A program made the translations under genes and the position numbers. Below are positions 7,226-57,198 of a stretch of 64,000 nucleotides of DNA, in pieces. Source of the stretch: Selaginella tamariscina. Lineage: Eukaryota; Streptophyta; Lycopodiopsida; Selaginellales; Selaginellaceae. Positions within the stretch are counted from its first letter, which is position 1; every line of letters begins with the position of its first letter. Under the pieces are notes generated by a model that saw only the letters and a program-made list of their open reading frames with translations, made no database searches and was not told the origin of the DNA. The stretch spans positions 313,898-377,897 of the forward strand of contig PUQB01000296.1 of NCBI GenBank assembly GCA_003024785.1, read 5' to 3'.

Positions 7226-7252
7226 ATGCAAGTTGTAACTAAAATGGGCATG
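7226..7252 (+). repeat. Left terminal inverted repeat, copy 1
   Basis: It begins ATGCAAGTTGTAACTAAA and ends GGGCATG. It matches the complement of 21791-21817 at 25 of 27 positions. Confidence 0.88.
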
Positions 7253-7728
7253 GCTATAGTCCCATTTCTTAATAATTAGCAATTTTAGCTATTTAATTAG
7301 CATTTTCTAATATTAAAGGAATATTCTTTAGAATATATGTTTGAAAAGAGAATATTCTTTAAAATATCTATTTTGTATTCTACCCTTTAATAAATTATAG
7401 CATTCATTGAACAAAAATTAATAACATTATAAAAGTAGAATGTATTAAATTATATAATATATTGCCTAATATAACAATTAAGGAAGAGCATAAGAAGTAC
7501 ATTATATAAATATTGATGTTGTTATCAAAATATATTATATTTAAATATAACATTATTAATTAAAAATTTGTAGTAGTAATAATATATATATAAAATCCTA
7601 TAATAATACAGTCAATCTTCCATATCATTTTTAAATTTATATAGTTAAGTATACAATTGGTACTATTATTAAAGAGTTTATAATAATTATGAATATTAAA
7701 TATATGATATTTTAATTTTGTAATTGCT

Positions 7729-10700
7729 TTAAGCTTCAGAAAACATACATTCCCTTGCAGTTTTGTTAATCGTGACTTTATCAACGCTTCTTGACATCCA
7801 CCCATATCGAATGGATTTAACATTTATAAAACATGCTGGGTCTTTTTGATTGGGAGACCATGTTTTTTCTAGGCATCCATTATATCTTTCGCTCTCCTTC
7901 TCGTGTCGCCTTTTTTGTGGTTTGAACCATGCAACCTTAACAATACTATTTTTTGTGATTACTTCAGGTGTGTCGATAATTTGACCCATCCAAATAGGCT
8001 GATTATATGACGCATCTGGAGTAATGAGAACCATCATTAGTTTTTGAAGATCCTTACAGCAATCAAAGTATGCTTTAGGTTTTTTGGTTCCTTTGTCCAA
8101 CAAAGTGTGGGGTTTGCACTTCCACATCACTACTGGCTTCTATGTCGTCTATGCTCAGTGATGTCATTTCAATCTCCTCTCGCCACCTTGTTTTAGGCCA
8201 GAAAGGGTGTTGCAATTCTGTACTTGTGACAGTAGGCCCTTCCAACTCTCGAACAACAGTCTCCCAATAGTTGACCACATGCTTATATAGTTCTGAGTAA
8301 CCAATTGCCTTATCAGAATTCTTTGGCATCGATTTTTGAACCCATGCCACATATTTTTTGATGCCATCAATAATAACCTCTTGTTCCTTGAGCTAGGCAC
8401 TCAATGGAATAGGGTCTGGTTGTCCTTCTGGGAGAAGTGGCTTTCCATCCTCTCCACTTTTGAAGAGCATTAAGCCCTCTTTCGGTAACCACTCCTGCTC
8501 TGATGGCCGTAACTTGTACTGCATAATAGGTATACCATCTCGTATGGAGAAAAGAATTGTAGCGGCACAAGGTGACCAACTAAGAATCACTCCCTTCTTT
8601 TATATACTCCTTGAGAAATTTTTTGAAGTCTGGCACCTCAGTCACAAGCAAAGCACAACTTTTTTTGGAGATGCAATTTTCAAAAAGATTCATCATATGC
8701 GGTAAGGTAAGTGCACTTGTCCTTTTTGTAGAGTTGGAGACCTTGCTGAAGAACGCATCAATATCTTCATGAGTGTGACCAACCATAAGGAAACTGAGCG
8801 TGATTGTTTCAAACACACCTTTGGCAACAAGCATTGACAAGTATGCTAGCACATATCTAGAAAATAAAAGTAAGTATGAGCTTGAGAAACCCTTAAGTAA
8901 AATGATTTACCTATTTTTGTTCTCGCCTGCACAATTATCCATTTGTAAAAGCAAATGACGAGGAAGCTTATTTGATGTTGAGGACACATGTACACTATTT
9001 GAGCTAGATCCCTCCACTGAACCAGAACTCTCAACAGGGCCATCTATTTTTGTGCAGGCTGTTGACAATGCTCTCATATTCCCAAGTAGCCTCATGTGTT
9101 CATGAGAGCATTATGTAAAGGTTGAAGGTGTTGTTTCTTCACTTTGAGATCACTGATAGGACTTGTCTGTGAGTGGGCTTCAAGGTTTCTGAAACACATG
9201 GCTAATGACCCAATAGTGAAATTGGAGTCGCTAGACCAATGTGGAAGTGAAAAGTGTCCATATGACTCACAACCGTGTCCATGTGTTAAGCACACCTGTC
9301 AATGAAATCGGAAGTTTCATGACATTTCCAAGGCACTTTGGTGTTGCAAAGAGCTTTGGAATGCTGGTCTTTGAATGATCCATCTTGTCATGGATCAAGC
9401 ACAGGTACTCTGATGGGCGTGACACAGAAAGCATGCGGTGTGCATAGTACTGAGACGGCAAGTTTGTTGTGCAATCATGTGGGCCTCCATCTTCCTTTGA
9501 ATGGTAGTGATCTCCACCAAGGTTTTTGCACAAGCCTCTGCAGCCTTCAATGATGTACAAGTGTCACACTTAGAAAAGCTAGAGTGTTTTGCAATCTCCA
9601 CATCCTTAAAATGAGTATTCCATATGTTGTTGAAGGTACTAGTGTAGATTGCTTGGAGCCCCATCAACTAAGGCACTTGTTCACATGTTCACACAGTTTC
9701 AATTGAGTGTAGATTGAAGGCAAAACCTTGAGATTTTCCCTGACCCCTGCATTTGTGGTTCGGCATTTGTGAGGCATCCTGTCTGCATTTGCTTCCACAA
9801 AAGCCTTGAGTATCTCTATGGCTGCCATGATGTGAGAGCGGGTTTTGACCAAGCGAGTGTTCCCATGAACTGAGGTTCGCGCTCCATCTAGCCACTCATC
9901 CCTCCGACGGTAGAACGTGGTCTTTGGGATCCCGTATATACTGTACCAAGCTTTGAAGCAGATGGCCACCTTATTAAATACCATGGATGTACTCTGATAA
10001 CCTGTGTCCGAGGCCATTCCATCAATACACCCAGTTAGTGCAGCATATACAAACTCATGCCTTTGCTTTTGGGTGAGCATACGAAAGACATGTCTACATT
10101 GGGTAATTTCATTCCGGTCTGCCATTTGACAACACTTCTTTTGCAACAGTCAATCGTGGAAATGCTCGTAAACTTTCGGAAGATGTAGGATCCATCTTTA
10201 CCCTCTTGCTGAAACTTGCAGGGGAAATCTACAACCCATGAATCGCCTTTTTCTTACAATAGGACCAATGCAAGAAACCTCTTCAAATATGAGTTGTTCT
10301 TCCGGGTTATTATTATTGAAATCCAACCCACAATATGTTGAACCATCTTGCCGTCTTAATTTAGATGTTCGCCACCTCACGAGGGATCCAGGATACAATG
10401 TGCCATTAGGTGAAACCTCTGTCACAACTACACCCACGAAGTCGGACCCTAGTTTCTCTTCTAACACTGCTTCCATTGGATTTATAGCTGTGATGATGCC
10501 TCTTCCGACTTCAATCTCACGAAGAAAGAGAATCACCTCATCCATCACAGCAGGCAAGCCATCATCTGGTAAACTCGTGCTACTATTTGTTTGTGACTCT
10601 GCATATTCTGTGTCAGCCTTGACTTCATCCAAATTTCACAATACAGGAGAACCCTCCTCAAATTCCATTCCCAGAACCTCAACATGCTTGTAAATGGTGT

Positions 10701-10838
10701 TCACCCATACGTACACACAAGATCCTTGGGCATATTGTGATATGATGCATTATTATCTCGAACTTCCACAGTTCCAGTGCCAACTATCTCGTTGTTCCGA
10801 AGAAGACATACTTTATCTCCAGTATTAAACATATTGTC
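7729..10838 (-). pseudogene. DUF7869-type (RNase H-like) transposase candidate, copy 1
   Basis: Likely the transposase of the element. In protein order: an N-terminal beta-rich region (VLFLREIEVGRGIITAINP ... GLDFNNNNPEEQLIFEE), a Cys pair region (CCQMADRNEITQCRHVF), a helical segment (SIYGIPKTTFYRRRDEWLDGAR), FSKCDTCTSL, and then a putative catalytic core: CLIHDKMDHSK, LLQMDNCAGENKNRYV and FLMVGHTHEDIDAFFSKV. These spaced acidic motifs match what I know of DUF7869 proteins, which resemble DDE integrases; the catalytic assignment is inference. A 54-bp intron (8857-8910) interrupts the codon of R in NKNRYV. The C-terminus is at 7729. Compared with copy 2, this copy has extra frameshifts (about 10225, 9770, 9290, 9110), so it is broken. 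An upstream leader exon (11712-11888) and a palindrome-rich intron precede it. Confidence 0.75.
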
Positions 10839-11711
10839 CTGCACATAAATAATTGTATTATTTATGATATCTGTTTATGCAATATTTCTAAGAAATCTGA
10901 ATTATAGTTACTTAATAATATGCATGTGCAATAATACATAATTATGTTTAGAGATAATATCTCATGTTTGATTAATACAACTGATGGGCGGGATTAATCC
11001 CGCCCACGAATCCTTCCGACGAGGAACGGTTGGCGGGATTAATCCCGCCGACTCAACCCCTTCGGAGAGAGTCGGCGGGATTAATCCCGCCTTGGACTCC
11101 CTCCGACAAGGAAGAGCTGGCGGGATTAATCCCGCCGACTCTCTCCGATGAGGAAGGGAGTTCGGCGGGATTAATCCCGCCCACAATTCTTACGACGGGG
11201 AATGGGTGGCGAGATTAAACCTGCACATAACTCTCTCCAAAACTATGATTTCAAAGAGATCTTGGGATAAATCCTGTCCCCAAATCTTTAAAACAGGGAT
11301 GTGATGGCGAGATTAATCCCGCCACCCCTTCCCTGCCTCCTAAAAATGGTGGGCGGGATTAATCCCGCCGACAACTCTTTCTAATAAATCTGGTAACTCT
11401 TCATCAGTTGAGAAGGTTATCGGCGGGATTAATCCCGCCACTCTTTTTCAGTGGCGGAGAAGCATTGCCCGAGAGATGGTGGCGGGATTAATCCCGCCAC
11501 CTCTTCGAAGAGGCGAAAAAGAAATGGCCGGATTAATCCCGCCGCCCGATTAACCTAGAATATTAAGTTAAAAGGATATTTAAACGAGATAAATCCCTAA
11601 CGGAATATATTATAATCCTAATGCATTCCTAAACCCTAAATTGTAATTTTAAGAGAGAATGTAAGAGAGTGAATCTTTATAAGTATTTTTAAATTTGTTT
11701 ATAATACTTAC
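10839..11711 (-). other. Proposed first intron of the transposase gene, copy 1
   Basis: On the minus strand the donor is CAA|GTAAGT at 11712/11711 and the acceptor TGCAG|GACAAT at 10839/10838. The intron contains palindrome array A. If spliced this way, the leader ORF (QCCLQ) joins the main ORF (DNMFDTGDKV) in phase 0. Confidence 0.55.
10983..11553. repeat. Palindrome array A, copy 1
   Basis: About a dozen copies of the 18-bp perfect palindrome GGCGGGATTAATCCCGCC and one- or two-base variants are separated by 25-60 bp. Spacers are themselves partly related (CGACTC...GAGTCGG), making longer imperfect palindromes. Translated in any frame this gives GLIPP/GGINPA peptides, which are artefacts. 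Confidence 0.92.
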
Positions 11712-11888
11712 TTGTAAACAGCACTGAAGGCGCCGTGCTTTCCTATAAAGAATAGCACCCAATTTAATCTCGCTCCTGAGATGATCACTATGAAGAAAAA
11801 GAAGATCTAAAGAGTGAAAAATACAGAAATGAAGAAACCTTACCGGAGAAAGAACCAGATCTGAATTTGAGTGGGAAATTAAATGCAT
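11712..11888 (-). other. Proposed leader exon of the transposase gene, copy 1
   Basis: An open stretch on the minus strand beginning near an ATG (complement of CAT at about 11884) and ending at a strong donor, CAA|GTAAGT. The sequence is nearly the same in copy 2 (47175-47351). It could be 5' UTR or encode a short N-terminal extension. Confidence 0.4.
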
Positions 11889-12129
11889 TTTCAAATTTAC
11901 ATGTCAGACCGACAATACATATGTCAGAAATTCAAATTTTTTAAAAGAAAGAAAATAAAATTTAAGATGAGTTGACACAAATATCCGACTCTGACATATA
12001 TACTCTCCAGTTCCAATGAGTATTTTAAATTGCATTTAATGTATTTAAGTGATTCAAGCTGTTTAATATTACGAAATTTTAGACTATATTCTACATTCTT
12101 AGTATTCAAGTATATTTATATTATATATA

Positions 12130-12170
<41 letters not shown>

Positions 12171-13920
12171 TATATAAATATATACTTAATACAATAAATA
12201 AATTGATATATTATTATGTATCATTAAAATATATTCATAGTCTGTTTATTATTATTATTTTCTTAATTACTCGAGTATTTAGTTTTCATTTCCTAGTATC
12301 AATGGGATATTCTTTAATATTTTATTAATATTTGAAGAATATTCTAATATTAAACCTGATTATCATAATTAAATTAGTCTTGTTCTTAATTATTGCAGTA
12401 ATTATTCTACATTTGTATATATTAAATGGATTTTCTCAATTAATTTGTTAATTTCAAGAATATCATGTTAAACCTTATTATCAATATTAAATTAAACACA
12501 CTATGAACATATTTTAAATTATACATAATAATACATCATTTTATCTAATATATAGTCATATATTTAATAATATATATATTAATATCATTTCCTAATTACT
12601 TGAGTAATTAATCTTCTTTATTAATGGATATTCTTTTATTATTTTCTTATTATTCCAAGAATATTCCAATATTAAACATGATTATGATAATTAATTTAGT
12701 TAATTATTTGAGTACTTAATTTACATTTGTATATATTAATGGGATTTTCTCAATTAATTTCTTATTATTTCAAGAATATTTCAATGTTAAACCTTTTTAT
12801 CAATATTAAATTAATATATATTAAAACTATATATGGCTATATATTAGATAAAATCATATATTATTATGTATAATTTAAAATATGTTCATAGTGTGTTTAT
12901 TAATATTATTTTCTTAATTATTCGATGTTGTTTTGCACACATATATAAACACAATCATAAATTTACACACGCATTACAAGAACTTACAAAAACACATATG
13001 CACACACATGCACAACCCTAAACCAAACTGAAGAAATATTGCTTCTTTATTGAAAACATCATGTTCAACCATGTATGATATATGTACTCAATCTGTGTGT
13101 ATGTAACACATTGAATTTACATGTGTAATATTTATATTAAGCTTGTTGGGAGCAAACCCTAAACCCTAAACCCTAAACCCTGTGTATACATGTGTGTACA
13201 AAAATAATTTTCAACACTCTCTCTTCACACCATGCATGATCCATCCTAAACCCTAAACCCTAATATGTAACACAATGAATTTACTCATGTAATATGTATG
13301 TATGTCTTGTGTGTATACACGTGTGTATATATGTACTCTGTATGTATATATGTGTACTTTCTGTCTTCTCTCATACATACACACCATGCATGATCCAGTT
13401 AATATGTACTGTCTCTCTTCTCTCAAACATACAACCATGCATGATCTATAATATGTACTCGGTCTCTCTAATAATTATGTACTAAAATATGTATGTCTGT
13501 GTGTATAATACACACCATGCATGATCCATAATATGTACTGTCTCTCTTCTCTCATATACTATGTATGTATATGTGTAAATAGTGTAAATATATGTGTATT
13601 AAATATGCAATGTGTACAAAAATAATTTTTCAACACTCTCTCTTCTCTCATACATACACCATGCATGATCCATCCTAAATCCAAAACCCTAAACCCTAAA
13701 CCCTAAACCCATGTAATATGTATGTATGTCTGTGTATACACGTGTATGTATATATGTGTATTAATATATGCAATGTGTATGTATGTATTGATACACATGA
13801 AACTTGACACACACATGTTAAATCCCTGCATGATTTATATTTTTGGGGTGTATGTGATACACCCACGCACACGCACGCGCTAATAATATAATGAAAGAAT
13901 ATTCGTTTAGGGCGAATCTA
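11889..13920. other. Central AT-rich zone of copy 1, no gene, telomere-like repeats
   Basis: I see no coding potential. The stretch 12120-12900 is AT-rich with repeated GGGATATTCTTT...AAGAATATTC motifs. Interstitial CCCTAAA runs, the plant telomere word, occur at about 13157-13180, 13246-13262 and 13687-13710. ACACACCATGCATGATCCAT is repeated several times (about 13228, 13380, 13433, 13510, 13660). The zone separates the two divergent genes. Confidence 0.75.
13157..13710. repeat. Interstitial telomere-type repeats (CCCTAAA)n, copy 1
   Basis: Three short runs of CCCTAAACCCTAAA with 2-4 units each are interspersed with TG-rich DNA. They recur at equivalent places in copy 2. Confidence 0.85.
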
Positions 13921-13924
13921 TATT

Positions 13925-14069
13925 TTATTCTTTTTAGGGTTTAAGTATATTCTCAGAAGGAATATTCTATTAGGTTAATATATATATTTAATTCCTTTAG
14001 GGTTTAGGTATATTCTTAGGGTTTCAAGAGGCGGCGGCTGTGAAATCGCGGCGGCGGCTGTGCACACAG
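13925..14069 (+). promoter_or_regulatory. Telo-box-rich promoter/leader exon of the ParB-methyltransferase-like gene, copy 1
   Basis: TTAGGGTTT occurs three times (about 13935, 13998, 14016), followed by a GCGGCGGCTGTGAAATCG leader that ends at a good splice donor, CACACAG|GTGAG, at 14069/14070. Plant promoters of highly expressed genes often carry such telo-boxes. The promoter call is inference; I see no clear TATA position. Confidence 0.45.
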
Positions 14070-14074
14070 GTGAG

Positions 14075-14077
14075 ATC

Positions 14078-14108
<31 letters not shown>

Positions 14109-14373
14109 ATGTATAGGAGTGTGCGTATAAATTTATTTATTAGTTTTATCTCTCGCACACACACGCACACTCCTGTGTATGTATATGTGTGTGTGGGTGT
14201 GTGTTTGTTTATCTGTATGATTTTATTTGTTTCGCTCACACACGCATACACACGATATACATATACACATATATATATATACCTATATACATATATACAT
14301 ACATATATTATGTGTACCAGTATCTGTAAATTTTTTTTTATTGATCTATCTCTCCCACACACACGCACACTGC

Positions 14374-14425
<52 letters not shown>

Positions 14426-15057
14426 ATCAATGCATATTAACAAATAGTATACAACACTAGTTTATATATATGCTTATATATTCATATGGGTTATATATCT
14501 ATATACACACAATATATATGTGTGTTTATCTGTATAATTTTATTTATTTATTAGTTTTATCTCTCGCACACACACGCACATCCTGTGTATGTATATGTGT
14601 GTGTGTGTGTGTGTTTGTTTATCTGTATGATTTTATTTGTTTCGCTCACACACGCATACACACAATATACATACACAATATATATACCTATATACATATA
14701 TACATACATACAACACTAGTTTATATATATGCTTATATATTCACAGACTCTCTCTCTTTTCTATGGATTATATATCTATATACACACATATATGTGTGTG
14801 TTTATCTGTATAATTTTATTTATTTATTAGTTTTATCTTTCGCACACACACGCACACTCCTGTGTATATATATGTGTGTGTGTGTTTGTTTATCTGTATG
14901 ATTTTATTTGTTTCGCTCACACGCATACACACGATATACATATACACACATATATATACCTATGTACACACATATATTATGTGTACCAGTACTGTATAAT
15001 TTTATTTATTTATCTATCTCTTGCACACACACGTACACTCCTATACATACATACTAC

Positions 15058-15112
<55 letters not shown>

Positions 15113-15175
15113 TATATATGTGTTGTTTTTATCTGTATAATTTTTTTATTTATTAATTTTATCTCTCGCACACAC
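14075..15175. repeat. TG/CA and TA microsatellite block, copy 1
   Basis: Alternating (TG)n, (CA)n, (TA)n and ATACATAC runs. A segment of about 300 bp containing CTCTCGCACACACACGCACA is repeated at least four times in tandem with variation. It lies inside the proposed first intron of the plus-strand gene. ORFs here are artefacts. Confidence 0.85.
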
Positions 15176-15184
15176 GCTAAGCCC

Positions 15185-16660
15185 CTCGAGCGGCGGATTA
15201 ATCCGCCGCTATAGGTTTATGGCCTCGCGGCGGGATTAATCCGCCCTATATGGTTGGGCCATGGCGGCGGATTAATCCCGCCGCTCACCCATGCCCTGCG
15301 CGGAATGCGGCGGGATTTATCTCGCCGGCAATGGCCTGTGTGAAGGCCCTAATGGGCGGGATTAATCCCGCCGGATTCCGCGCAGGGCATTTACAGGGGA
15401 TGGGCGGCGGGATTAATCCCGCCGCTCATGAGGCTAACCGAAGAGCCTGCATGAAAGATCCTGCACGGAAGGCTAACCGAAGAGCCTGCATGACATGTCC
15501 TGCGCGTAAGGCGGCGGGATTAATCCCGCCGCCCAGGGAATTCACGCAGGACATGAACGGCGGGATTAATCCGGCCCCACGCTCATGCCCTTCGCGGAGG
15601 GCGGCGGGATTAATCCCGCCGCTCAGGCACTTCCGCAGGATATAAGCGGCGGGATTAATCCCGCCCCCACCCATCCCTGTTCAAAATGCCGCAGCCAATA
15701 TATATGTGTGAGCGCATGATTTACGAGAGGGCGGCGGGATTATCTCTCCGAACCTTCATTACCCGGTGGCGGGATTAATCCCGCCACCCTTTTTTTCCTC
15801 CATTGGTATGTTGAATCAATCCCGACTAACTCTGTCTGAGACGGAGAAGGTTTACAAAATACCAATGGAGGGAACTGAGAAGGGTGGTGGGATTAATTTC
15901 ACCATCCCTTACATGGTGGGCGGGATTAATCCCGCCGCGTACGCATGCCCTGCGCGGAATCGGGCGGGATTTATCCCGCCGCCATTGGCCTGCCTGAAGG
16001 GCCTAGGCGGCGGGATTAATCCCGCAAGATTTCGCACAGGGCATTGGCGTTCGGCGGGATTAATCCCGCCGACTAAGGCCGAGTGAAGGGCCTGGGAGGC
16101 GGGATTAATCCCGCCGACGCCAATTCCCTGCGCGAATCGGGCGGGATTTATCCCGCCGCCATTGGCCTGCCTGAAGTGCCTAGGCGGCGGGATTAATCCC
16201 GCCCGATTCCGCGCAGGGAATTGGCGTCCGGCGGGATTAATCCCGCCGCATAGGGACCGAGTGAAGGCCCTGGGCGGCGGGATTAATCCCGCCGAGTCTT
16301 CAATGCCTGTTGGAGGAATGAATCCGCCACCCTTCCTTTTTCTCCATTGGTGAGTCGGACCAATCCCAAACGTTTCTGTCTGAGACGTAGAAGGTTTCAA
16401 CATACCAATGGAGAGAATTGGGAAGGGTGGGAAATTCATTTAACCATCCTTACATGGTGGGCGAGATTAATCCCGCCTCCTTTCTGGAGTCACTGAAGGG
16501 GTGTGAGAAATAAATCCTGCCCAGTTCTCTCTGAGACCGAGAAGGGTGGCAAGATTAATTCCGCACTCCCGTTCAAGGCCTCCAGAAAGGTGGCGAGATT
16601 AATCCCGCCCACTCTTTCAGGAGGCATTGAAGGGGTGGCGAGATTAATCCCGCCGCACCT
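15185..16660. repeat. Palindrome array B, copy 1
   Basis: About 27 copies of GGCGGGATTAATCCCGCC or close variants (GGCGGGATTTATCCCGCC, GGCGAGATTAATCCCGCC). Spacers repeat CATTGGCCTGCCTGAAG, TTCCGCGCAGGGCA and CTCCATTGGTATGTTGAA in both orientations, so larger hairpins form. The array occupies the last third of the proposed 2.9-kb intron (14070-16955). Confidence 0.92.
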
Positions 16661-16768
16661 TCCATGTGAATATATATGTGTATTAGTATATATAAGTTGC
16701 ATATCTCATTTTATTTACTTTTATCATCTTATCATAATATTTCGAGTAAAAGCTAGGAATCTATGTAA

Positions 16769-16855
16769 AACTGTCCAGAGCTCACATTTGTGGTGGTTCT
16801 AAAACGAAATGTTATCTTTCTTTTGCACTAACACAAATGTGAGCTTCGGACAGTT
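16769..16855 (+). ncRNA. Intronic stem-loop, 24-bp stem, copy 1
   Basis: The left arm 16769-16792 (AACTGTCCAGAGCTCACATT...) pairs with 16832-16855 (complementary except 2 bases) around a 39-nt loop. It sits 100 bp upstream of the intron acceptor. It is present and intact in copy 2 (52141-52227). Shape and size would allow a small-RNA precursor or a structured splicing element; neither is shown. Confidence 0.45.
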
Positions 16856-16955
16856 AATTACGTCTACTTCTCTCTGTGTATTATTTTTGTATATTCGGGT
16901 TTATACAAGTGTGTGTGCGTTTTTATATAATTTATTATAGTGTATTATTTTGCAG

Positions 16956-19900
16956 AAGGACGATTTGATCAAACAAGGAGATCGAGTCATTAGTATGGAG
17001 TCGTCGTCAAATTCTGGGTAAGAATTAAAATAAAATCTGTTATACTCGGATACTTGAACTAATCATTTTTGTATTCAGATGTGGAATTGAGGTGACATTA
17101 AAGACAAGAGCAGGAGAAGAGATGGGCAGGGGGATTCTGGAATCAACTTGGCCATATTTTAAGATAAATGGGAAGCGCATTGGAGCAACCATGGCTGCTG
17201 TCAAATTAACCTCTGTCACATCTCATGGACAAGCAAAACAATGGAAAGTAGATTCGCTAGTCAAGCACCCGAAAGCAGGCTGCGAACCCAGATTGGACGA
17301 TGCTCGACACATATGCCTTGTTCCATCCAATGTCACGTTCTCGGATCCAGAGGTCGTCAGTTACAACATTAATTTCGGGTGGTTTTGTCGACTTGTGGAT
17401 AATGACGTTCACGTGTTCACTAATGATGTTGACCTTGGAGTTCTTCTTCAACTCAACGAAAGCCCATCTATGGAGGGGATCCATCTGGATGTCTACTTCG
17501 AAAATCTTCAGACTCATCGAGTAGGTGTATTGTCAGGAGATATTGCTTCACAATACAGAAAATCAGCAAGTGAGCAATCTTCCCTCTTCACATTGAAGAA
17601 GAACACAGCGACATCATAATGGAGATTGAGAGGGTGGCTCGGTCTCAGGTTCTCTACAGATCACGTTCAATTTGCTTAGGGAGCTTTGGGAGCTGGAAGA
17701 GTGTACCGAGAACACTAGAACAGCTGCAGTCGGGGATCACACATGTTGATTCGGATCGCAAAAGAAAATCATCAATCGTTTTGTCAGCTGCACCTGTGGC
17801 ATCTCATGCTGCAATAAGTCACAAGGAAATGATGTTGGATGATAAGATTTATCCTTGTAGGGTTAAATATTGCAGCGTCAACCCAAACTTCAATTACAGG
17901 CCACTCAACCAGGAACGTGTAGCTGAGCTCATGAGAAGATGAAGGACGACAATTCTTATACCGTTCCACATAATGCTGTTTTGTGTCCATACTATGAAAG
18001 AAGGAAGGGCGCTGACAAAGTCTGGATCACAACACCAGAACAACTCATGAAGATTCAGACGGAGAATAAAAATCTATCAAGTACTACATCATTAGTGGCC
18101 AGCACACAATAACGGCAGCCCAACGACTTCTCGATGAACACAACAAAGGAACGATGGCAACAAAACTTTCCGAGCATACCCGTGAGAAGCTGACAAAAAG
18201 ATCGGCGTTTTTAGCTAAGCCGAATCTCACAATCGAGCAGTACCATAAGTTATCGGCGGAATGGGACGCTGCCGACACCAACCACTACAACAGCAAAATA
18301 TGGGAGAAGTTTAAACACACGCGAGCCGTGTGGGAATCTCTTCAGCGACCACAAAGAGCTACCGCAGGGAATACACAATCTGCGGAATACCGGGTAAGCA
18401 AATTGTTTGGGCGGGATTTATCTCGCCGGTATATTAATCTGTCTTTTTCCTCAGAGAGTTGAAGAAATTGCAGCAGTTGATTTTGCCCAGGTGGGCGGGA
18501 AGGAAACATCCTTTCTGATGATGTTGATTTCTTGCCCCGAAGATAGGATCTTTGCCAAATGGTTGGGGATTATGGAATCCTTTTCAAAAGGAACACTGAA
18601 GAAGAAGCAGACAAGTGAAGGGGAGCCCTCAGAAAAGTCTGCAAAGAAACCCAGTAAGACGCCGAAGGCTAAGTCTGTTCAATCTACAAAGGATGTAGAC
18701 AACGATTTCAAGCTCACATGGTTGAAGCCTTTAAATGGAACAACGATGGAGGAGATGGAAGTCTTGGCTGATTTGGTGATCGATGGCAAACTACAAATTA
18801 ATAACAGCAGCCCAACCTCTCCTTTTCATCTCAAGGCAATGGAGTTGAAGACGGTCAGGCATTTCAAGGAGTGGTTGGGAATACACTGCCACAAACTGGG
18901 TTGGACCTCGACTTCAACATATGAAGAGGTCAGCAAATATTTGCATGTGACGAACGATGATATGCTTGTCGAATGGGTGAACCAATCGGAAGATCTAGGC
19001 AAGAATCTATTGCACGCCAACGCCAAAAAGGAGAACATTGGGATGACGCCTTCTCTTATGGCAGTCCTTCAGCAGCGGAGAACCGAATTGAACCTTATAA
19101 AGGAGGATGCTACGAATCACGACAAGCCCTACAGATGTTTGTTGTTAGATTCGGAGACTTTATGGGGTAACATCACTGCTTGTAGGAAACCGTTTCAATT
19201 GTTCGTGATGGATCGGCGGGTGTCAAAAAATCTTTCGACAGATAGGGCACTAGAGGATCTGGTGGAGAAACTTAGCCGTGCAAGCATATACATAGAAGGT
19301 ATTTATTATTGAATTCATGCTTGCGCTCTTCACTGATACCTACTTTTTCAGGTATTTATTTCTTGATTCTTGCTCATGTCACCGATACTTTTGCCTTCGC
19401 CTTCGCCAAGAAGAATAGACATCGTTGGACAGGATTTTATATGAACGATGCTAATCCCAAGTGCATTGATACGTTGTTCACTTGGTTGTTAGGAATGCGC
19501 CAAACAATTTCAAGCTTCCAAATGACTGGCCAGGCATCTGTTTGCACTCCAACGGCCCTGAACCTCCATCCGATACACCGATAGGTATGAGTGACGTATT
19601 CGGCAATGTACGTTATCCAAACATTACAAGTCAAGCGGCACGGAGCATCGTCAACTTGATAGGGGTCCTCACAGTGATGCGTGGGTTTTTGACTACTGCA
19701 CTAGGGGGTCCGTCTTGAGGAGTGTTACCTTCGGCATACATGTGTGTTTGCCGTTGAAAAGGATAAGACCATGGTTGAGGACCTGAACAAGTGGATAGAT
19801 TGGGTCTCAACTGAGTACCCCAACGATTCCATAAAGGCGTATTTGAGAAAGTTCCCTCCAGATAAGTGCGATAGCTCTGAAGGTGAATCTGGTTCAATCT

Positions 19901-20095: not shown

Positions 20096-20350
20096 AGAGT
20101 GATGAATAGTTGTAAATGAGTGTAACATAAGGCATTTTTGTATATTTCTTTTATATTTGTACAGAAAATAAATTCTCAAGGATTAATGAAGCTTTTAGTT
20201 CAAACATGGGTCACACATTAACAAGGTAAATAATATACCTTGATAATTTTAAGGTCAGCTAATTATCATTTTGCAGATGTAATGAAATAATTGAGAACAT
20301 GGATTTTCAGCATTGCATGAGGTAAGAGAGGGGTTTGGCGACAATTTCTT

Positions 20351-21790: not shown

Positions 21791-21817
21791 CATGCCCACT
21801 TTAGTTACAACGTGCAT
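21791..21817 (-). repeat. Right terminal inverted repeat, copy 1
   Basis: The complement reads ATGCACGTTGTAACTAAA...GGGCATG. It is followed by TSD TTGT (21818-21821). Confidence 0.88.
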
Positions 21818-41771: not shown

Positions 41772-41773
41772 AC

Positions 41774-42445: not shown

Positions 42446-42472
42446 ATGCAAGTTGTAACTAAAATGGGCATG
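42446..42472 (+). repeat. Left terminal inverted repeat, copy 2
   Basis: Identical to the left TIR of copy 1 over the 27 bp. Confidence 0.88.
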
Positions 42473-47174: not shown

Positions 47175-47351
47175 TTGTAAACAGCACTGAAGGTGCCGTG
47201 CTTTCCTATAAAGAATAGCACCCAATTTAATCTCGCTCCTGAGATGATCACTATGAAGAAAAAAGAAGATCTGAAGAGTGAAAAATACAGAAATGAAGAA
47301 ACCCTTGCCGGAGAAAGAAACCAGATCTGAATTTGAGTGGGAAAGTAAATG
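47175..47351 (-). other. Proposed leader exon of the transposase gene, copy 2
   Basis: It corresponds to 11712-11888 of copy 1. It is open in one frame (MHLLSHSNSDL ... RHLQCCLQ) up to the donor, with Q|D joining in phase. Confidence 0.4.
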
Positions 47352-49320
47352 CATTTTCAAATTTACATGTCAGGACCGACAATACATATGTCAGAAATTC
47401 AAATTTTTTAAAAAGAACAGAAAATAAAATTTAAGATGAGTTGACACAAATATCCGACACTCTGACATATATACTCTCCAGTTCCAATGAGTATTTTAAA
47501 ATTGCATTTAATGTTATTCAAGTGATTCAAGCTGTTTAATATTTACGAAATTTTAGACTATATTCTACATTCTTAGTATTCAAGTATATTTATATTATAT
47601 ATATATATATATATAAATATATACTTATACAATAAATAAATTGATATATTATTATGTATCATTTAAAATATATTCATAGTCTGTTTATTATTATTATTTT
47701 CTTAATTACTCGAGTATTTAGTTTTCATTTCCTAGTATCAATGGGATATTCTTTATTAATATTTAAAGAATATTCTAATATTAAACCATGATTATCATAA
47801 TTATTTCAAGAATATTCATGTGTTAAACCTTATTATCAATATTAAATTAATATATATTATTAAAACTATATATGACTATATATTAGATAAAATGATGTAT
47901 TATTATGTATAATTTTAAAATATGTTCATAGTGTGTATATTAATATCATTTCCTTAATTACTTGAGTAATTAATCTTCTTTATATTAATGGGATATTCTT
48001 TATTATTTTCTTATTATTCCAAGAATATTCCAATATTAAACATGATTATGATAATTAATTTAGTTAATTATTTGAGTACTTAATTTATTTTGTATATATT
48101 AATGGGATTTTTCAATTAATTTCTTATTATTTCAAGAATATTTCAATGTTAAACCTTTTTATCAATATTAAATTAATATATATTATTAAAACTATATATG
48201 GCTATATATTAGATATAAAATTATATATTATTATGTATAATTTAAAATATGTTCATAATGTGTTTATTAATATTATTTTTCTTAATTATTCGATGTTTGT
48301 TTTGTACACATATATAAACACAATCATAAATTTACACACGCATTACAAGAACTTACAAAAACACATATGCACATACATGCACAACCCTAAACCAAACTGA
48401 AGAAATATGTTCCTTCTTTATTGAAAACATCATGTTCAACGCATGTATATATGTACTCAATCTGTGTGTATGTAACACATTGAATTTACATGTGTAATAT
48501 TTATATTAAGCTTGTTGGGAGCAAATCCTAAACCCTAAACCCTAAACCCTGTGTATACATGTGTGTACAAAAATAAATTTTCAACACTCTCTCTTCACAC
48601 CATGGATGATCCATCCTAAACCCTAAACCCTAAACCCTAATATGTAACACAATGAATTTACTCATGTAATATGTATGTATGTCTGTGTGTATACACGTGT
48701 GTATGTATATATTATGTGTACTTTCTGTCTTCTCTCATACATACACACCATGCATGATCCATGTTAATATGTACTGTCTCTCTTCTCTCAAACATACACA
48801 CCATGCATGATCTATAATAATATACTCGGTCTCTTTAATATTATGTACTAATATGTATATATGTCTGTGTGTATAATACACACCATGCATGATCCATAAT
48901 ATGTATTGTCTCTCTTCTCTCATATACTATGTATGTATATCTGTGTATAATATGTGTAAGTATATATGTGTACTAATATATGCAATGTGTATAAAAATAA
49001 TTTTTCAACACTCTCTCTTCTCTCATACATATACACCATGCATGATCCATCCTAAATCCAAAACCCTAAACCCTAAACCCTAAACCCATGTAATATGTAT
49101 GTATGTCTGTGTGTATACACATGTGTATGTATATATTATGTGTATTAATATATGCAATGTGTATGTATGTATTGATATACATGAAACTTTAACACTCTCA
49201 TGGACACACACATGTTAAATCCCTGCATGATTTATATTTTTGGGGTGTATGTGATACACCCATGCACATGCACGCGTTAATAATATAATGAAAGAATATT
49301 TGTTTAGGGCGAATCTATAT
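47352..49320. other. Central AT-rich zone of copy 2, no gene, telomere-like repeats
   Basis: Same as 11889-13920, with several deletions (for example near 47580-47620 and 47760-47830). CCCTAAA runs at about 48527-48550, 48614-48640 and 49060-49087; CACCATGCATGATC repeats. Confidence 0.75.
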
Positions 49321-49324
49321 TTTA

Positions 49325-49466
49325 TTCTTTTTAGGGTTTAAGTATATTCTCAGAAGGAATATTCTATTAGGGTTAATATATATATTTAATTCTTTAGGGT
49401 TTAGGTATATTCTTAGGGTTTCAAGAGGCGGCGGCTGTGAAATCGGCGGCGGCGGCTTGCACACAG
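49325..49466 (+). promoter_or_regulatory. Telo-box-rich promoter/leader of the ParB-methyltransferase-like gene, copy 2
   Basis: Three TTAGGGTTT boxes, a GGCGGCGGCTGTGAAATCGG leader and splice donor ACACAG|GTGAG at 49466/49467. The proposed intron runs to 52330. Confidence 0.45.
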
Positions 49467-49469
49467 GTG

Positions 49470-50359
49470 AGATCTGTGTGTGTGTGTGTGTGTATATGTA
49501 TGTATGTATATATGTATAGGAGTGTGCGTATAATTTTATGTGTACCAGTATCTATAAATTTTTTTTTGATCTATCTTCCCCACACACACGCACACTACTT
49601 TATATATATATATATAATCAATGCATATTAACAAATAGTATACAACACTAGTTTATATATATGCTTATATATTCATATGGTCTATATTACACACATATAT
49701 ATGTGTGTGTTTATCTGTATAATTTTATTTATTTATTAGTTTTATCTCTCGCACACACACGCACACTCCTGTGTATATATATGTGTGTGTGTGTGTTTGT
49801 TTATCTGTATGATTTTATTTGTTTCGCTCACACACGCATACACACAATATACATATACACATATATATATACCTATATACATATATACATACATATATTA
49901 TGTGTACCAGTATCTATATAAATTTTTTATTGATCTATCTCTCCCACACACACGCACACTGCTTTACATATATATATATATATAACATTGATTATATAAT
50001 ATATACATATTAACAAATAGTATACAACACTAGTTTATATATATGCTTATATATTCACAGACTCTCTCTCTTTCTCTATGGGTTATATATCTATATACAC
50101 ACATATATATGTGTGTGTTTATCTGTATAATTTTATTTATTTATTAGTTTTATTTTTTCGCACACACACGCACACTCTATGTATATATATGTGTGTGGTG
50201 TGTTTGTTTATCTGTATGATTTATTTGTTTCGCTCACACGCATACACACGATATACATATACACACATATATATACCTATGTACACACATATATTATGTG
50301 TACCAGTACTGTATAATTTTATTTATTTATCTATCTCTTGCACACACACGTACACTCCT

Positions 50360-50428
<69 letters not shown>

Positions 50429-50505
50429 TATATATATGTGTGTGTTTTTATCTGTATAATTTTTTTATTTATTAATTTTTTCTCTCGCACACACGTTAAG
50501 CCCCT
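49470..50505. repeat. TG/CA and TA microsatellite block, copy 2
   Basis: As in copy 1 but with about 300 bp less of the tandem CACACACGCACACTCC-containing segment near its start. It contains a 40-bp (TA)n run near 50385-50425. No coding content. Confidence 0.85.
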
Positions 50506-50506
50506 C

Positions 50507-52032
50507 GAGCGGCGGGATTAATCCCGCCGCTATATGGTTGGGGCCATGGCGGCGGGATTAATCCCGCCGCCGAGGCCCTTCACGCAGGCTATGGGCGGCG
50601 GGATTAATCCCGCCGCTCTAGGACAAACCGAAGAGCGGCGGGATTAATCCCGCCGCCCATGGCCTGCGTGAGGGGCCTCGGCGGCGGGATTAATCCCGCG
50701 CTCACCCATGCCCTGTGCGGAATGCGGCGGGATTTATCTCGCCGGCAATGGCCTGTGTGAATGCCCTAATGGGCGGGATTAATCCCGGCGGATTCCGCGC
50801 AGGGCATTTACAGGGGATGGGCGGCGGGATTAATCCCGCCGCTCATGAGGCTAACCGAAGAGCTTGCATGAAAGATCCTGCACGGAAGGCTAACCGAAGA
50901 GCCTGCATGACATGTCCTGCGCGTAAGCGGCGGGATTAATCCCGCCGCCCAGGAAATTCACGCAGGACATGAACGGCGGGATTAATCCCGCCGCTCTTCG
51001 GTTTGTCCTAGAGGCGGCGGGATTAATCCCGCCGCTCAGGCACTTCCGCAGGATATAAGCGGCGGGATTAATCCCGCCCCCACCCATCCCTGTTCAAAAT
51101 GCCGCAGCCAATATATATGTGTGAGCGCATGATTTACGAGAGGGCGGGGGATTAATCTCTCCGAACCTTCATTGCCCGGTGGCGGGATTAATCCCGCCAC
51201 CCTTTTTTCCTCCATTGGTATGTTGAATCAATCCCGACTAACTCTGTCTGAGACGGAGAAGGTTTACAAAATACCAATGGAGGGAACTGAGAAGGGTGGT
51301 GGGATTAATTTCACCATCCCTTACATGGTGGGCGGGATTAATCCCGCCGCGTACGCATGCCCTGCGCGGAATCGGGCGGGATTTATCCCGCCGCCATTGG
51401 CCTGCCTGAAGGGCCTAGGCGGCGGGATTAATCCCCCGACTAAGGCCCGAGTGAAGGGCCTGGGAGGCGGGATTAATCCGCCGCGACGCCATGCCCTGCG
51501 CGGAATCGGGCGGGATTTATCCCGCCGCCATTGGCCTGCCTGAAGTGCCTAGGCGGCGGGATTAATCCCGCCCGATTCCGCGCAGGGAATTGGCGTCCGG
51601 CGGGATTAATCCCGCCGCATAGGGACCGAGTGAAGGCCCTGGGCGGCGGGATTAATCCCGCCGAGTCTTCAATGCCTGTGGAGGAATGAATCCGCCACCC
51701 TTCCTTTTTTCTCCATTGGTGAGTCGGACCAATCCCAAACGTTTCTGTCTGAGACGTAGAAGGTTTACAACATACCAATGGAGAGAATTGGGAAGGGTGG
51801 GGAAATTCATTTAACCATCCCTTACATGGTGGGCGAGATTAATCCCGCCTCCTTTCTGGAGTCACTGAAGGGGTGTGAGAAATAAATCCTGCCCAGTTCT
51901 CTCTGAGACCGAGAAGGGTGGCAAGATTAATTCCGCACTCCCGTTCAAGGCCTCCAGAAAGGTGGCGAGATTAATCCCGCCCACTCTTTCAGGAGGCATT
52001 GAAGGGGTGGCGAGATTAATCCCGCCGCACCT
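50507..52032. repeat. Palindrome array B, copy 2
   Basis: About 27 core palindromes. It includes a copy-2-specific 150-bp hairpin at 50551-50700 (loop about 50620-50631) and lacks one block present in copy 1 (compare 51430-51490 with 16030-16135). Confidence 0.92.
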
Positions 52033-52140
52033 TCCATGTGAATATATATGTGTATTAGTATATATAAGTTGCATATCTCATTTTATTTACTTTTATCATC
52101 TTATCATAATATTTCGAGTAAAAGCTAGGAATCTATGTAA

Positions 52141-52227
52141 AACTGTCCAGAGCTCACATTTGTGGTGGTTCTAAAACGAAATGTTATCTTTCTTTTGCAC
52201 TAGCACAAATGTGAGCTTCGGACAGTT
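52141..52227 (+). ncRNA. Intronic stem-loop, copy 2
   Basis: Arms 52141-52164 and 52204-52227, the same 24-bp stem with two mismatches as 16769-16855. The loop differs by one base. Confidence 0.45.
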
Positions 52228-52330
52228 AATTACGTCTACTTCTCTCTGTGTATTATTTTTGTATATTCGGGTTTATACAAGTGTGTGTGCGTTTTTATAT
52301 GATTTGTATTCATAGTGTATTATTTTGCAG

Positions 52331-55300
52331 AAGGACGATTTGATCAAACAAGGAGATCGAGTCATTAGTATGGAGTCGTCGTCAAATTCTGGGTAAGAAT
52401 TAAAATAAAATCTGTTATACTCGGATACTTGAACTAATCATTTTTGTATTCAGATGTGGAATTGAGGTGACATTAAAGACAAGAGCAGGAGAAGAGATGG
52501 GCAGGGGGATTCTGGAATCAACTTGGCCATATTTTAAGATAAATGGGAAGCGCATTGGAGCAACCATGGTTGCTGTCAAATTAACCTCTGTCACATCTCA
52601 TGGACAAGCAAAACAATGGAAAGTAGATTCGCTAGTCAAGCACCCGAAAGCAGGCTGCGAACCCAGATTGGACGATGCTCGACAGATATGCCTTGTTCCA
52701 TCCAATGTCACGTTCTCGGATCCAGAGGTCGTCAGTTACAACATTAATTTCGGGTGGTTTTGTCGACTTGTGGATAATGACGTTCACGTGTTCACTAATG
52801 ATGTTGACCTTGGAGTTCTTCTTCAACTCAACGAAAGCCCATCTATGGAGGGGATCCATCTGGATGTCTACTTCGAAGATCTTCAGACTCATCGAGTAGG
52901 TGTATTGTCAGGAGATATTGCTTCACAATACAGAAAATCAGCAAGTGGAGCAATCTTCCCTCTTCACATTGAAGAAGAACACAGCGACATCATAAGGAGA
53001 TTGAGAGGGTGGCTCGGTCTCAGGTTCTCTACAGATCACGTTCAATTTGCTTAGGAAGCTTCGGGAGCTGGAAGAGTGTGCCGAGAACACTAGAACAGCT
53101 GCAGTCGGGGATCACACATGTTGATTCGGATCGCAAAAGAAAATCATCAATCGTTTTGTCAGCTGCACCTGTGGCATCTCATGCTGCAATAAGTCACAAG
53201 GAAATGATGTTGGATGATAAGATTTATCCTTGTAGGGTTAAATATTGCAGCGTCAACCCAAACTTCAATTACAGGCCACTCAACCAGGAACGTGTAGCTG
53301 AGCTCATGGAGAAGATGAAGGACGACAATTCTTATACCGTTCCACATAATGCTGTTTTGTGTCCATACTATGAAAGAAGGAAGGGCGCTGACAAAGTCTG
53401 GATCACAACACCAGAACAACTCATGAAGATTCAGACGGAGAATAAAAATCTATCAAGTACTACATCATTAGTGGCCAGCACACAATAACGGCAGCCCAAC
53501 GACTTCTCGATGAACACAACAAAGGAACGATGGCAACAAAACTTTCCGAGCATACCCGTGAGAAGCTGACAAAAAGATCGGCGTTTTTAGCTAAGCCGAA
53601 TCTCACAATCGAGCAGTACCATAAGTTATCGGCGGAATGGGACGCTGCCGACACCAACCACTACAACAGCAAAATATGGGAGAAGTTTAAACACACGCGA
53701 GCCGTGTGGGAATCTCTTCAGCGACCACAAAGAGCTACCGCAGGGAATACACAATCTGCGGAATACCGGGTAAGCAAATTGTTTGGGCGGGATTTATCTC
53801 GCCGGTATATTAATCTGTCTTTTTCCTCAGAGAGTTGAAGAAATTGCAGCAGTTGATTTTGCCCAGGTGGGCGGGAAGGAAACATCCTTTCTGATGATGT
53901 TGATTTCTTGCCCCGAAGATAGGATCTTTGCCAAATGGTTGGGGATTATGGAATCCTTTTCAAAAGGAACACTGAAGAAGAAGCAGACAAGTGAAGGGGA
54001 GCCCTCAGAAAAGTCTGCAAAGAAACCCAGTAAGACGCCGAAGGCTAAGTCTGTTCAATCTACAAAGGATGTAGACAACGATTTCAAGCTCACATGGTTG
54101 AAGCCTTTAAATGGAACAACGATGGAGGAGATGGAAGTCTTGGCTGATTTGGTGATCGATGGCAAACTACAAATTAATAACAGCAGCCCAACCTCTCCTT
54201 TTCATCTCAAGGCAATGGAGTTGAAGACGGTCAGGCATTTCAAGGAGTGGTTGGGAATACACTGCCACAAACTGGGTTGGACCTCGACTTCAACATATGA
54301 AGAGGTCAGCAAATATTTGCATGTGACGAACGATGATATGCTTGTCGAATGGGTGAACCAATCGGAAGATCTAGGCAAGAATCTATTGCACGCCAACGCC
54401 AAAAAGGAGAACATTGGGATGACGCCTTCTCTTATGGCAGTCCTTCAGCAGCGGAGAACCGAATTGAACCTTATAAAGGAGGATGCTACGAATCACGACA
54501 AGCCCTACAGATGTTTGTTGTTAGATTCGGAGACTTTATGGGGTAACATCACTGCTTGTAGGAAACCGTTTCAATTGTTCGTGATGGATCGGCGGGTGTC
54601 AAAAAATCTTTCGACAGATAGGGCACTAGAGGATCTGGTGGAGAAACTTAGCCGTGCAAGCATATACATAGAAGGTATTTATTATTGAATTCATGCTTGC
54701 GCTCTTCACTGATACCTACTTTTTCAGGTATTTATTTCTTGATTCTTGCTCATGTCACCGATACTTTTGCCTTCGCCTTCGCCAAGAAGAATAGACATCG
54801 TTGGACAGGATTTTATATGAACGATGCTAATCCCAAGTGCATTGATACGTTGTTCACTTGGTTGTTAGGAATGCGCCAAACAATTTCAAGCTTCCAAATG
54901 ACTGGCCAGGCATCTGTTTGCACTCCAACGGCCCTGAACCTCCATCCGATACACCGATAGGTATGAGTGACGTATTCGGCAATGTACGTTATCCAAACAT
55001 TACAAGTCAAGCGGCACGGAGCATCGTCAACTTGATCAGGGGTCCTCACAGTGATGCGTGGGTTTTTGACTACTGCACTAGGGGGTCCGTCTTGAAGGAG
55101 TGTTACCTTCGGCATACATGTGTGTTTGCCGTTGAAAAGGATAAGACCATGGTTGAGGACCTGAACAAGTGGATAGATTGGGTCTCAACTGAGTACCCCA
55201 ACGAATCCATAAAGGCGTATTTGAGAAAGTTCCCTCCAGATAAGTGCGATAGCTCTGAAGGTGAATCTGGTTCAATCTCGGAGTCTGAGAACGAACTTCA

Positions 55301-55496
55301 ATCAGATATTAGACCGGAAGTTATCTCGAGGAGTACAGAACATTCGCACACTCCAGGACCCATGGAAACATCAATAGAAGATGCAGAAGATCTTGAACCA
55401 TCTCACAAGCGGCTTAGACCTTCTTCGCCTCACTCAGAAGGTAATAGCGAAGAAGAATTGATAATGAATTGTAGAGTGATGAATAGTTGTAAATGA
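52331..55496 (+). pseudogene. ParB-like plus amino-methyltransferase-like gene, copy 2
   Basis: Exon starts at 52331, ATG 52370; introns 52393-52453, 53770-53830 and 54675-54727. The N-terminal domain (GIEVTLKTRAGEEMGRGILE ... IFPLHIEEEHSDIIRRLRGW) is longer than in copy 1 but stops at 53054; a coiled-coil stretch (LLRKLRELEECAENTRTA) follows in another frame. ParB-like core: VNPNFNYRPLNQERVAELME at about 53255-53315, and after a shift YIISGQHTITAAQRLLDEH at about 53460-53517. The methyltransferase-like part has LLLDSETLWG (54513-54543) and, in the open frame 54858-55496, ITSQAARSIVNLIRGPHSDA, VFDYCTRGSVLKECYLRHTC and FAVEKDK. This resembles beta-class motif X/I (…LDPFxGSGTT…xGIE). The canonical DPPY is absent, so catalysis is doubtful. 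An acidic C-terminus with a possible basic patch (HKRLRPSS) ends the protein. Confidence 0.62.
53770..53830 (+). other. 61-bp intron carrying one palindrome copy
   Basis: GTAAGC ... TCCTCAG. It contains GGGCGGGATTTATCTCGCC, a variant of the array palindrome, well away from arrays A and B. Same in copy 1 (18394-18454). Confidence 0.7.
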
Positions 55497-55727
55497 GTGT
55501 AACATAAGGCATTTTTGTATATTTCTTTTATATTTGTACAGAAAATAAATTCTCAAGGATTAATGAAGCTTTTAGTTCAAACATGGGTCACACATTAACA
55601 AGGTAAATAATATACCTTGATAATTTTAAGGTCAGCTAATTATCATTTTGCAGATGTAATGAAATAATTGAGAACATGGATTTTCAGCATTGCATGAGGT
55701 AAGAGAGGGGTTTGGCGACAATTTCTT

Positions 55728-56918
55728 GTGCCACATGTCAGAATGACAGAGTTCATGCAGGAAATGGATAATAATGCAGCTCAAAACATCGTTACCATGG
55801 GGGCCACTTCATCATCATTTTTATTGGCTTCAGTTCCGAAATCAATTTCTTCAGCGCATGCAATATCTGAATCTTGTAAGGATGATGTACAATTAAATGA
55901 TGAAGGGATAGGGCAACGAGAATAGTGGCAAACGGATAAATGTGAAAGGGAGCAAACAAGTGATTTGCAAAGTATTCAAGAGGCAACGCTATCTCATGTT
56001 ACTCATGGCCATATTGTGTTGTTGGATGTCAATGGTGTTCTGCTTCATCGACAAAGGCCCCAGGATAGAAAAAAGAAATCAAACAAGGAGATTTCATTCC
56101 TTGTCATGGTAAATTTCGATATGATATTATTTTTCGTCCAGGGTTGGATCGTCTCTTTCAAAAGCTTAAGGAGATGGGTGCGCTTGTGGGGATTTGGTCA
56201 TGCATGCAGATTCATAACTTAACACCTGTTGAATTTACTTAAGAAACATTGTAGTGTTGCAGAAGAGGTGATTCGTAAAGATTGGATTTTTGACCAGCGA
56301 ATATGTTATAAACCTCTCGAATTTCACAATATAAGAAAGGAAAGCAAGCCATACTTCTTCAAGAATGAAAGAATAATTGGGACTCATGGGGAGATCAGTC
56401 GCTTAAGGATAATGAAGAACGCACAGATGTTAGTAGTAGACGACTCTCCTCAGAAGGCTATGCTCAACCAAAACATTGCTTGTATTCATCCAATCACTTT
56501 CGATCCATATTCTGATACCGATATCATGGATGAGCTAGTGAACTACTTGGATACGTGCCTCAGAAAGAAGAATCTCGAAAATTTTTGTGAGCAGTATCCA
56601 CCGTATCATACATTTCCTGAAGCTTTTCTTTCTCGTGATATTGAATTTTATAAAATGAAGGATAGCAACCGGGCGCTTTATAATATTATTCTTAAGGAAC
56701 GTCAGTTTTTAGATGAGCCTTTATGCAGACCTTCTCTTATCACATCTTATGTATTAACAAGGATGGCAACTCCCAATTGCATTCGTGAGAGTGTTAAGTG
56801 GTGGCAACAACATCAAGATATTGACCAAAATGATTTGATTAATCCGGAGAGTGATGATTTAGACAAAATGAAGAAGATTTCTTTGTATGATAGGAAGAAA
56901 GTATTTATAAAAAATTAA
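55728..56918 (+). pseudogene. FCP1/NLI-interacting-factor-like HAD phosphatase gene, copy 2
   Basis: Same layout as 20351-21529. Motif I: GHIVLLDVNGVLLHR (about 56008-56052). The central FRPGLDRLFQKLKEMG and GIWSCM lie in a shifted frame (56135-56215). The long frame 56229-56918 contains EFHNIRKESKPYFFKNERII, QMLVVDDSPQKAMLNQNIAC and the helical C-terminus to YDRKKVFIKN. In this copy the C-terminal 229 residues are uninterrupted, whereas the copy-specific shifts near 55912-55930 damage the N-terminal part. The A-run frameshift after HRQRPQDRKKK is shared with copy 1. Confidence 0.63.
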
Positions 56919-57171
56919 CATGTTGATAAGAAAATGATTTCATTTGTAATTATGTTTGATAGTATTTCTTCATTATTGTAAACTATTTTTAGAATAATAT
57001 GAATATTCTAAGATATTTTAGGAATATTCCTTACTAAGTAAGGTTATTGAAGGATTAATTAATTAATTAATTAATATTTAAGGCTTAATTACATATTAAT
57101 TAAATGATTAATTAATAATTAAAACTTAAGTATTAATTAGTAATTTATTTTATATTCCCATTTTCACGTAT

Positions 57172-57198
57172 CATGCCCACTTTAGTTACAACGTGCAT
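57172..57198 (-). repeat. Right terminal inverted repeat, copy 2
   Basis: Same as 21791-21817. It is followed by TSD ATAA (57199-57202). Confidence 0.88.

Follow-up and report, generated by a model that had tools for sequence, protein, structure and literature searches.

A high-copy 14.6-kb terminal inverted repeat transposon of Selaginella tamariscina with a probable DUF7869 transposase, two further genes and palindrome arrays

We analyzed a stretch of 64,000 nucleotides, hereafter the window, from Selaginella tamariscina (GenBank assembly GCA_003024785.1, contig PUQB01000296.1, positions 313,898 to 377,897, forward strand), and found in it two copies of one transposon of about 14.6 kb with terminal inverted repeats (TIRs), at 7226-21817 (copy 1) and 42446-57198 (copy 2). 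Considered together with its copies elsewhere in the genome, this is very likely a class II element (DDE/D, cut-and-paste type) of a land plant, mobile and present in high copy number, which is moved by a transposase of the Pfam family DUF7869. Each copy also carries an orphan gene (gene 2), a gene with a NIF/FCP1-type domain (gene 3) and two arrays of an 18-bp palindrome.

The left and right 27-bp TIRs are identical at 25 of 27 positions, the element terminates in ATGCA..TGCAT, and each copy is flanked by its own 4-bp target site duplication (TSD), TTGT for copy 1 and ATAA for copy 2. Two units with such TIRs and differing TSDs, and hence a long TIR transposon, had been proposed in a first-pass annotation of the window; its coordinates proved exact, and the ends, TSDs, empty sites and genomic ends described here bear the proposal out. 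The features at the borders of the two copies were as follows.

7222-7225, TSD TTGT, left, copy 1
7226-7252, plus strand, left 27-bp TIR, copy 1
21791-21817, minus strand, right 27-bp TIR, copy 1
21818-21821, TSD TTGT, right, copy 1
42442-42445, TSD ATAA, left, copy 2
42446-42472, plus strand, left 27-bp TIR, copy 2
57172-57198, minus strand, right 27-bp TIR, copy 2
57199-57202, TSD ATAA, right, copy 2
24233-24346, minus strand, paralogous empty site for copy 1 (single TTGT)
57848-57931, plus strand, paralogous empty site for copy 2 (single ATAA)

Apart from these four TIR ends, none was found within the window in a scan allowing up to seven mismatches, and past 27 bp there is no clear repeat common to the two ends of copy 1. 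When the flanks of copy 1 were joined, they corresponded to a contiguous paralogous stretch of the window with a single TTGT and no element, with a 10-base difference lying only a few bases ahead of the junction. The joined flanks of copy 2 likewise corresponded to a paralogous stretch with a single ATAA and no element; this match is weaker, and BLAST covers only about 20 bases of its left flank. The two copies had been described as near-identical, which holds for the ends and genes (99.2% identity across the last 5.8 kb and 96.3% across the first 4 kb) but not for the centre, where pieces align at 86-96% identity and repeats are rearranged. Short arrays of the plant telomere-type heptamer (AAACCCT / CCTAAAC) were also noted in the non-coding centre of both elements, at 13154-13181, 13674-13710, 48615-48640 and 49051-49087.

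The host assembly (G000) comprises 300.7 Mb in 1391 contigs, to which labels such as C84 and C80 refer. The genome search with the 27-base TIR that the first-pass annotation had suggested, run with at most one mismatch, returned 1840 + 1752 = 3592 ends, and the reversed pattern returned 0. A 27-base tag from the transposase gene occurred 1682 times and a tag from gene 2 occurred 1685 times. Among the matches listed, 53 of 93 transposase tags were paired with a gene-2 tag 8.9-11.0 kb away in the orientation of the element, and 53 of 100 gene-2 tags had a partner transposase tag, while controls on the wrong side or the wrong strand gave 2 and 1. The pairing was made on the first 100 places per tag, with 7 of the 100 transposase tags, on contigs beyond C136, excluded to leave C1-C136. 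If the sampled share holds throughout, near-complete copies would number roughly a thousand and account for several per cent of the genome.

An exact 4-bp TSD was present in 13 of 23 end pairs and lacking in 10, with 0.09 expected by chance (binomial p about 5e-26). The tally was made up of 12 pairs (two in the window and 10 genomic), of which 8 had a TSD, one pair each in C1 (1), C660 (0) and C633 (1), and 8 further pairs (3); C869, where a single end was retrieved, was left out, and the pairs spanned up to about 20 kb. Variable ends without TSDs, which the first-pass annotation had named as evidence against a transposon, were not the overall pattern. No fixed target sequence was evident among the 13 TSDs (TTGT, ATAA, TGGT, AAGA, TCTA, CTAT, AACG, TTAT, ATAA, AATT, ATGT, ATTA and TATC).

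Some copies had altered structures. The copy in C633 (255001-262500; element at 2135-5525 of this piece) is internally deleted to about 3.4 kb and has both ends and the TSD AATT, retaining about 2.3 kb of the left end and 1.1 kb of the right end with the interior gone; it would be a Ds-like copy, presumably mobilised in trans. Doubled right ends, 249 bp apart, were seen in C80 (563531 onwards) and doubled left ends, 523 bp apart, in C660 (92500 onwards), perhaps reflecting nested insertions or aberrant transposition. A second, divergent DUF7869 family was considered and rejected, the copies in C660, C869, C633 and C1 (4 of 300 matches examined) being of the same family.

The transposase gene lies near the left end on the minus strand.

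7729-10832, minus strand, transposase gene (DUF7869, PF25273), copy 1, model from C84, with 1-bp indels interrupting the frame
42953-46077, minus strand, transposase gene, copy 2, with 1-bp indels interrupting the frame

Most copies, the two of the window among them, have reading frames interrupted by one-base indels private to each copy, which are likely to be long-read errors. The transposase frame of C84 and C80 is open except for one TAA, located in a 54-bp GT-AG intron, and the resulting model has 1021 residues. Several multi-exon genes had been annotated; the transposase model does have this one intron, but introns were rejected as the source of most frame breaks, these being private 1-bp indels.

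DUF7869 was the only Pfam match of the transposase (E 9e-47). Among 3212 candidate proteins, 61 were homologues, including proteins of Riccia sorocarpa, Physcomitrium patens, Ceratodon purpureus and sea urchins, and many of these relatives are unnamed metagenome-type records. In an alignment of 51 of the 61 (omitting P0039, P0043, P0046, P0047, P0054 and P0057-P0061), the invariant residues included D169, M171, D172, D327, N328, K334, N335, G362, H363, T364, H365, D367 and D369, in the numbering of the relative P0001. The motifs CLIHDKMD, LQMDNCAGENKN and GHTHEDID were each readable in 13 of 14 element copies, a set chosen by having ends or a transposase match and not an unbiased sample. P0001 has a predicted fold of RNase H type, similar to those of integrases and transposases; its model has RNase H topology, and invariant Asp residues make up a candidate DDD triad at the three expected places. 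Foldseek gave no match at E <= 0.001 against the PDB and viral models, the DUF7869 profile had 0 matches among PDB sequences, and 0 of its 196 pattern matches in viral contigs were confirmed.

Because the predicted fold of a relative is RNase H-like and invariant Asp residues lie where a DDD triad would be expected, the DUF7869 protein, which the first-pass annotation had put forward as the transposase candidate, is very probably the transposase of the element. It would bind the TIRs and cut by means of a predicted D-D-D RNase H active site, and the element would insert at cuts staggered by 4 bp, without an evident preference for a target sequence. DUF7869, listed in Pfam as of unknown function, would in this way gain a likely transposase role with defined ends and target duplication, in a long element of the cut-and-paste type present at >1600 tagged copies in a 300-Mb genome.

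The two other genes lie towards the right end.

16995-20094, plus strand, gene 2, copy 1, orphan, model of about 975 aa with 4 inferred exons, ISGQHTITAAQ motif
52370-55472, plus strand, gene 2, copy 2
20366-21529, plus strand, gene 3, copy 1, NIF/FCP1-type HAD domain, DVNG, VDDSP
55743-56918, plus strand, gene 3, copy 2

In a search of about 5.8 billion proteins, from which relatives sharing no 5-residue words would escape, none of 6011 candidates was a homologue of gene 2 and none of 2071 a homologue of gene 3. Gene 2 had no match in Pfam (E 1 for the whole protein, E 10 for two sub-domains) or in NCBIfam (E 10, two sub-domains), and only chance-level matches in PHROGs (phrog_21535, function unknown, E 0.13) and among PDB sequences (a single one, E 0.75). 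The label of a ParB/methyltransferase-like protein that gene 2 had been given thus finds no support in these profiles, and the sole ground for its ParB part is one motif noticed by eye, YYIISGQHTITAAQ, which we take to look ParB-like. This motif is present in 14 of 14 copies, and the ParB-like region is not spanned by any single frame of the window. The FCP1-like protein, on the other hand, could be confirmed, as gene 3 has a NIF-type HAD domain (Pfam 47.2 bits vs a curated cut-off of 21.8). The catalytic motif of NIF/FCP1-type proteins is usually DxD; in gene 3 it is altered to DVN (DVNG), with VDDSP kept, in all 14 copies. The gene-3 model spans one frame change, either an indel or an intron, and its matches to PDB sequences were at chance level.

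Selection was compared for the three genes. Codon loss in genes 2 and 3 is slight in each of the 14 copies, and the same holds for the transposase in 13, part of the transposase of C660 reading N and so not being judged. Against the most diverged copies (C1b and C69), omega ranged over 0.22-0.55 (transposase), 0.28-0.58 (gene 2) and 0.40-1.08 (gene 3). Nonsynonymous to synonymous counts among shared variants were 24:33, 58:54 and 21:6, respectively (binomial p 2e-9, 3e-10 and 0.44; a guide only, as the copies are related). Singleton variants (76:35, 115:56 and 35:11) were nearer neutral, as would be expected from dead copies and sequencing noise. Judged by these substitutions, gene 2 is clearly under purifying selection, and no constraint was detectable on gene 3 in its shared variants. 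Because purifying selection on gene 2 is about as strong as on the transposase, this orphan is likely to be a working part of the element rather than passive cargo.

An 18-bp palindrome, GGCGGGATTAATCCCGCC, occurs at 26-46 sites per copy in the 14 copies (at most three mismatches), arranged in two arrays that lie 5' of the transposase and of gene 2, respectively. These arrays are new here and were absent from the first-pass annotation.

10990-11540, left palindrome array, copy 1, 10 core sites, 158 bp 5' of the transposase start
15232-16651, right palindrome array, copy 1, 21 core sites, its end 343 bp 5' of the gene-2 start
46235-47060, left palindrome array, copy 2, 17 core sites
50514-52023, right palindrome array, copy 2, 24 core sites

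The arrays of C84 lie at 3785-4503 and 8016-9568. In 14 copies, 151-201 bp separate the transposase start from the beginning of the left array. The gap from the end of the right array to the gene-2 start is 343-388 bp in 13 of 14 copies, no such start having been found in C69. Spacing between palindromes is mostly 44-46 bp. Across 512 sites, selected by their inner 12 bases, conservation is 88% or more at every one of the 18 positions; the six outer positions, unused in site picking, reach 88-97% compared with 31-60% in the spacers. The palindrome occurred 0 times in the window outside the elements and 0 times in five shuffles of C84. The CpG ratio of the arrays was near 1 (six copies), and that of the spacers alone, with palindromes masked, was 0.63-0.75 (14 copies) and not distinctive. 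Special CpG protection of the arrays was rejected, since the high ratio disappears once the palindromes are masked; the spacers are unremarkable in CpG, and there is therefore no sign of array-wide protection against methylation decay. From its sequence features, the palindrome looks like a control element.

It is quite possible, at a little under an even chance, that the protein binding the arrays is the transposase itself or a host factor, such as one of homeodomain type, and that gene 2 is otherwise employed, for instance in assisting transposition. The TAATCC half-sites of the palindrome resemble homeodomain-type sites, other plant transposases are known to bind at multiple internal sites, and the distances between arrays and genes are as expected of promoter elements; against this, the arrays are internal, away from the TIRs, and their protein partner is only putative. 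About as likely, and tentatively preferred here, the gene-2 protein could be a sequence-specific regulator acting on the palindrome arrays and keeping the element expressed or unmethylated, in a manner resembling the VANC proteins of VANDAL elements (see below). It would bind the arrays beside the 5' ends of both transcription units and keep both active. A bolder proposal, which we regard as unlikely, is that a non-MuDR plant transposon may have evolved its own anti-silencing or partition-like system independently of VANDAL/VANC, the orphan gene-2 protein, perhaps of distant ParB descent, loading on dozens of 18-bp palindromes flanking two transcription units. If true, such a system may explain the high copy number of a 14.6-kb element.

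Likened by its features and not by its transposase sequence, the element comes closest to a large member of the Sola superfamily, a placement that we consider reasonably probable. The parts of PMC10741241 drawn on here describe Sola elements as DDD transposons with 4-bp TSDs and TIRs of 11-1124 bp, mostly 2-9 kb in size with some over 15 kb, reported in moss and seemingly uncommon in flowering plants. The element shares the 4-bp TSD (13 of 23 pairs and the two empty sites), TIRs of 27 bp within this range, a probable DDD transposase, the moss occurrence and the size range (PMC10741241). By this description the 4-bp TSD, the probable DDD triad and the plant host fit Sola, making it doubtful that the family is, as the first-pass annotation had it, not a described one (PMC10741241). 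A superfamily of its own for the DUF7869 lineage, outside Sola, is to us less likely than not: a literature text search for the word DUF7869 found no mention in the papers covered and no other Pfam transposase family matches the protein, but TSD length, probable DDD, size range and moss occurrence all match Sola (PMC10741241). What sets the element apart are the two extra genes and the palindrome arrays, which are not mentioned for Sola in those parts of the source (PMC10741241).

These two genes might be captured host genes carried along in a DUF7869 transposon, like the passengers of Pack-type elements. Gene 3 would suit this explanation, having no detectable constraint and a NIF domain, a family that occurs in host proteins too. 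Gene 2, however, is constrained like the transposase and has the same tag copy number, no homologue of either gene was found within the limits of the protein search, and nearly all codons of both are retained throughout the 14 copies, biased as that sample may be; we judge the passenger explanation improbable. A segmental duplication or assembly repeat mimicking a transposon, to which the presence of only two copies in the window might point, is ruled out for practical purposes by the empty sites, the differing TSDs and the >1600 dispersed tags.

Outside the elements, window positions 1-5700 and 30500-42300 contain fragments resembling Ty3/Gypsy long terminal repeat retrotransposons (integrase- and protease-like frames, identified by eye), with 13-bp tandem repeats of the TATCCTGTAGGCA type, and the window has one N, at position 27926. 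Elsewhere in the assembly, C1148 carries a green-plant type rbcL with a full Pfam domain and residues suggestive of unedited C-to-U sites, and C908:137911-138201 gave a weak RuBisCO match in a 48,820-aa open frame, probably an N run or repeat.

Several other groups of transposons were compared. The ends ATGCA..TGCAT in place of CAC..GTG, and a TSD of 4 bp rather than 3 bp, led us to reject membership in CACTA / EnSpm. Kolobok (including KolobokP) and piggyBac share the 4-bp TSD, and Kolobok also has accessory proteins; their target, however, is TTAA, found in 0 of the 13 TSDs here, and membership was rejected (as these groups are described in the parts of PMC9587614 used). The KDZ / Zisupton elements, TET/JBP-carrying fungal transposons, likewise combine a transposase with an extra gene thought to counter silencing, but have TSDs of 8 bp (Zisupton, Dileera) or 7 bp (Kyakuja) in the sections of PMC12730594 consulted. 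Their transposases and cargo differ as well, and with 4-bp rather than 8-bp TSDs the element was not placed among them.

A close parallel in organization is VANDAL/VANC of Arabidopsis, of MuDR type. VANC21 of VANDAL21 binds a short motif arrayed in noncoding parts of the element that encodes it, and removes methylation, according to the portions of PMC5735166 and PMC10398659 cited here. Like these elements (PMC5735166, PMC10398659, in the same portions), the Selaginella transposon has several genes, noncoding arrays of a short motif beside them and a non-transposase gene that is kept. Unlike VANDAL, it has a transposase of another class and a TSD of 4 bp, compared with 7-12 bp given for Mutator in the part of PMC10741241 used; Pfam gave only DUF7869 and no MULE transposase, and MuDR / VANDAL membership was rejected. 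Unlike VANC, gene 2 has no profile match, and the motif is an 18-bp palindrome, not YAGTATTAY. The element may be a second, unrelated case of a transposon keeping a non-transposase gene together with short-motif arrays, which makes the repeated evolution of motif-directed anti-silencing by transposons testable.

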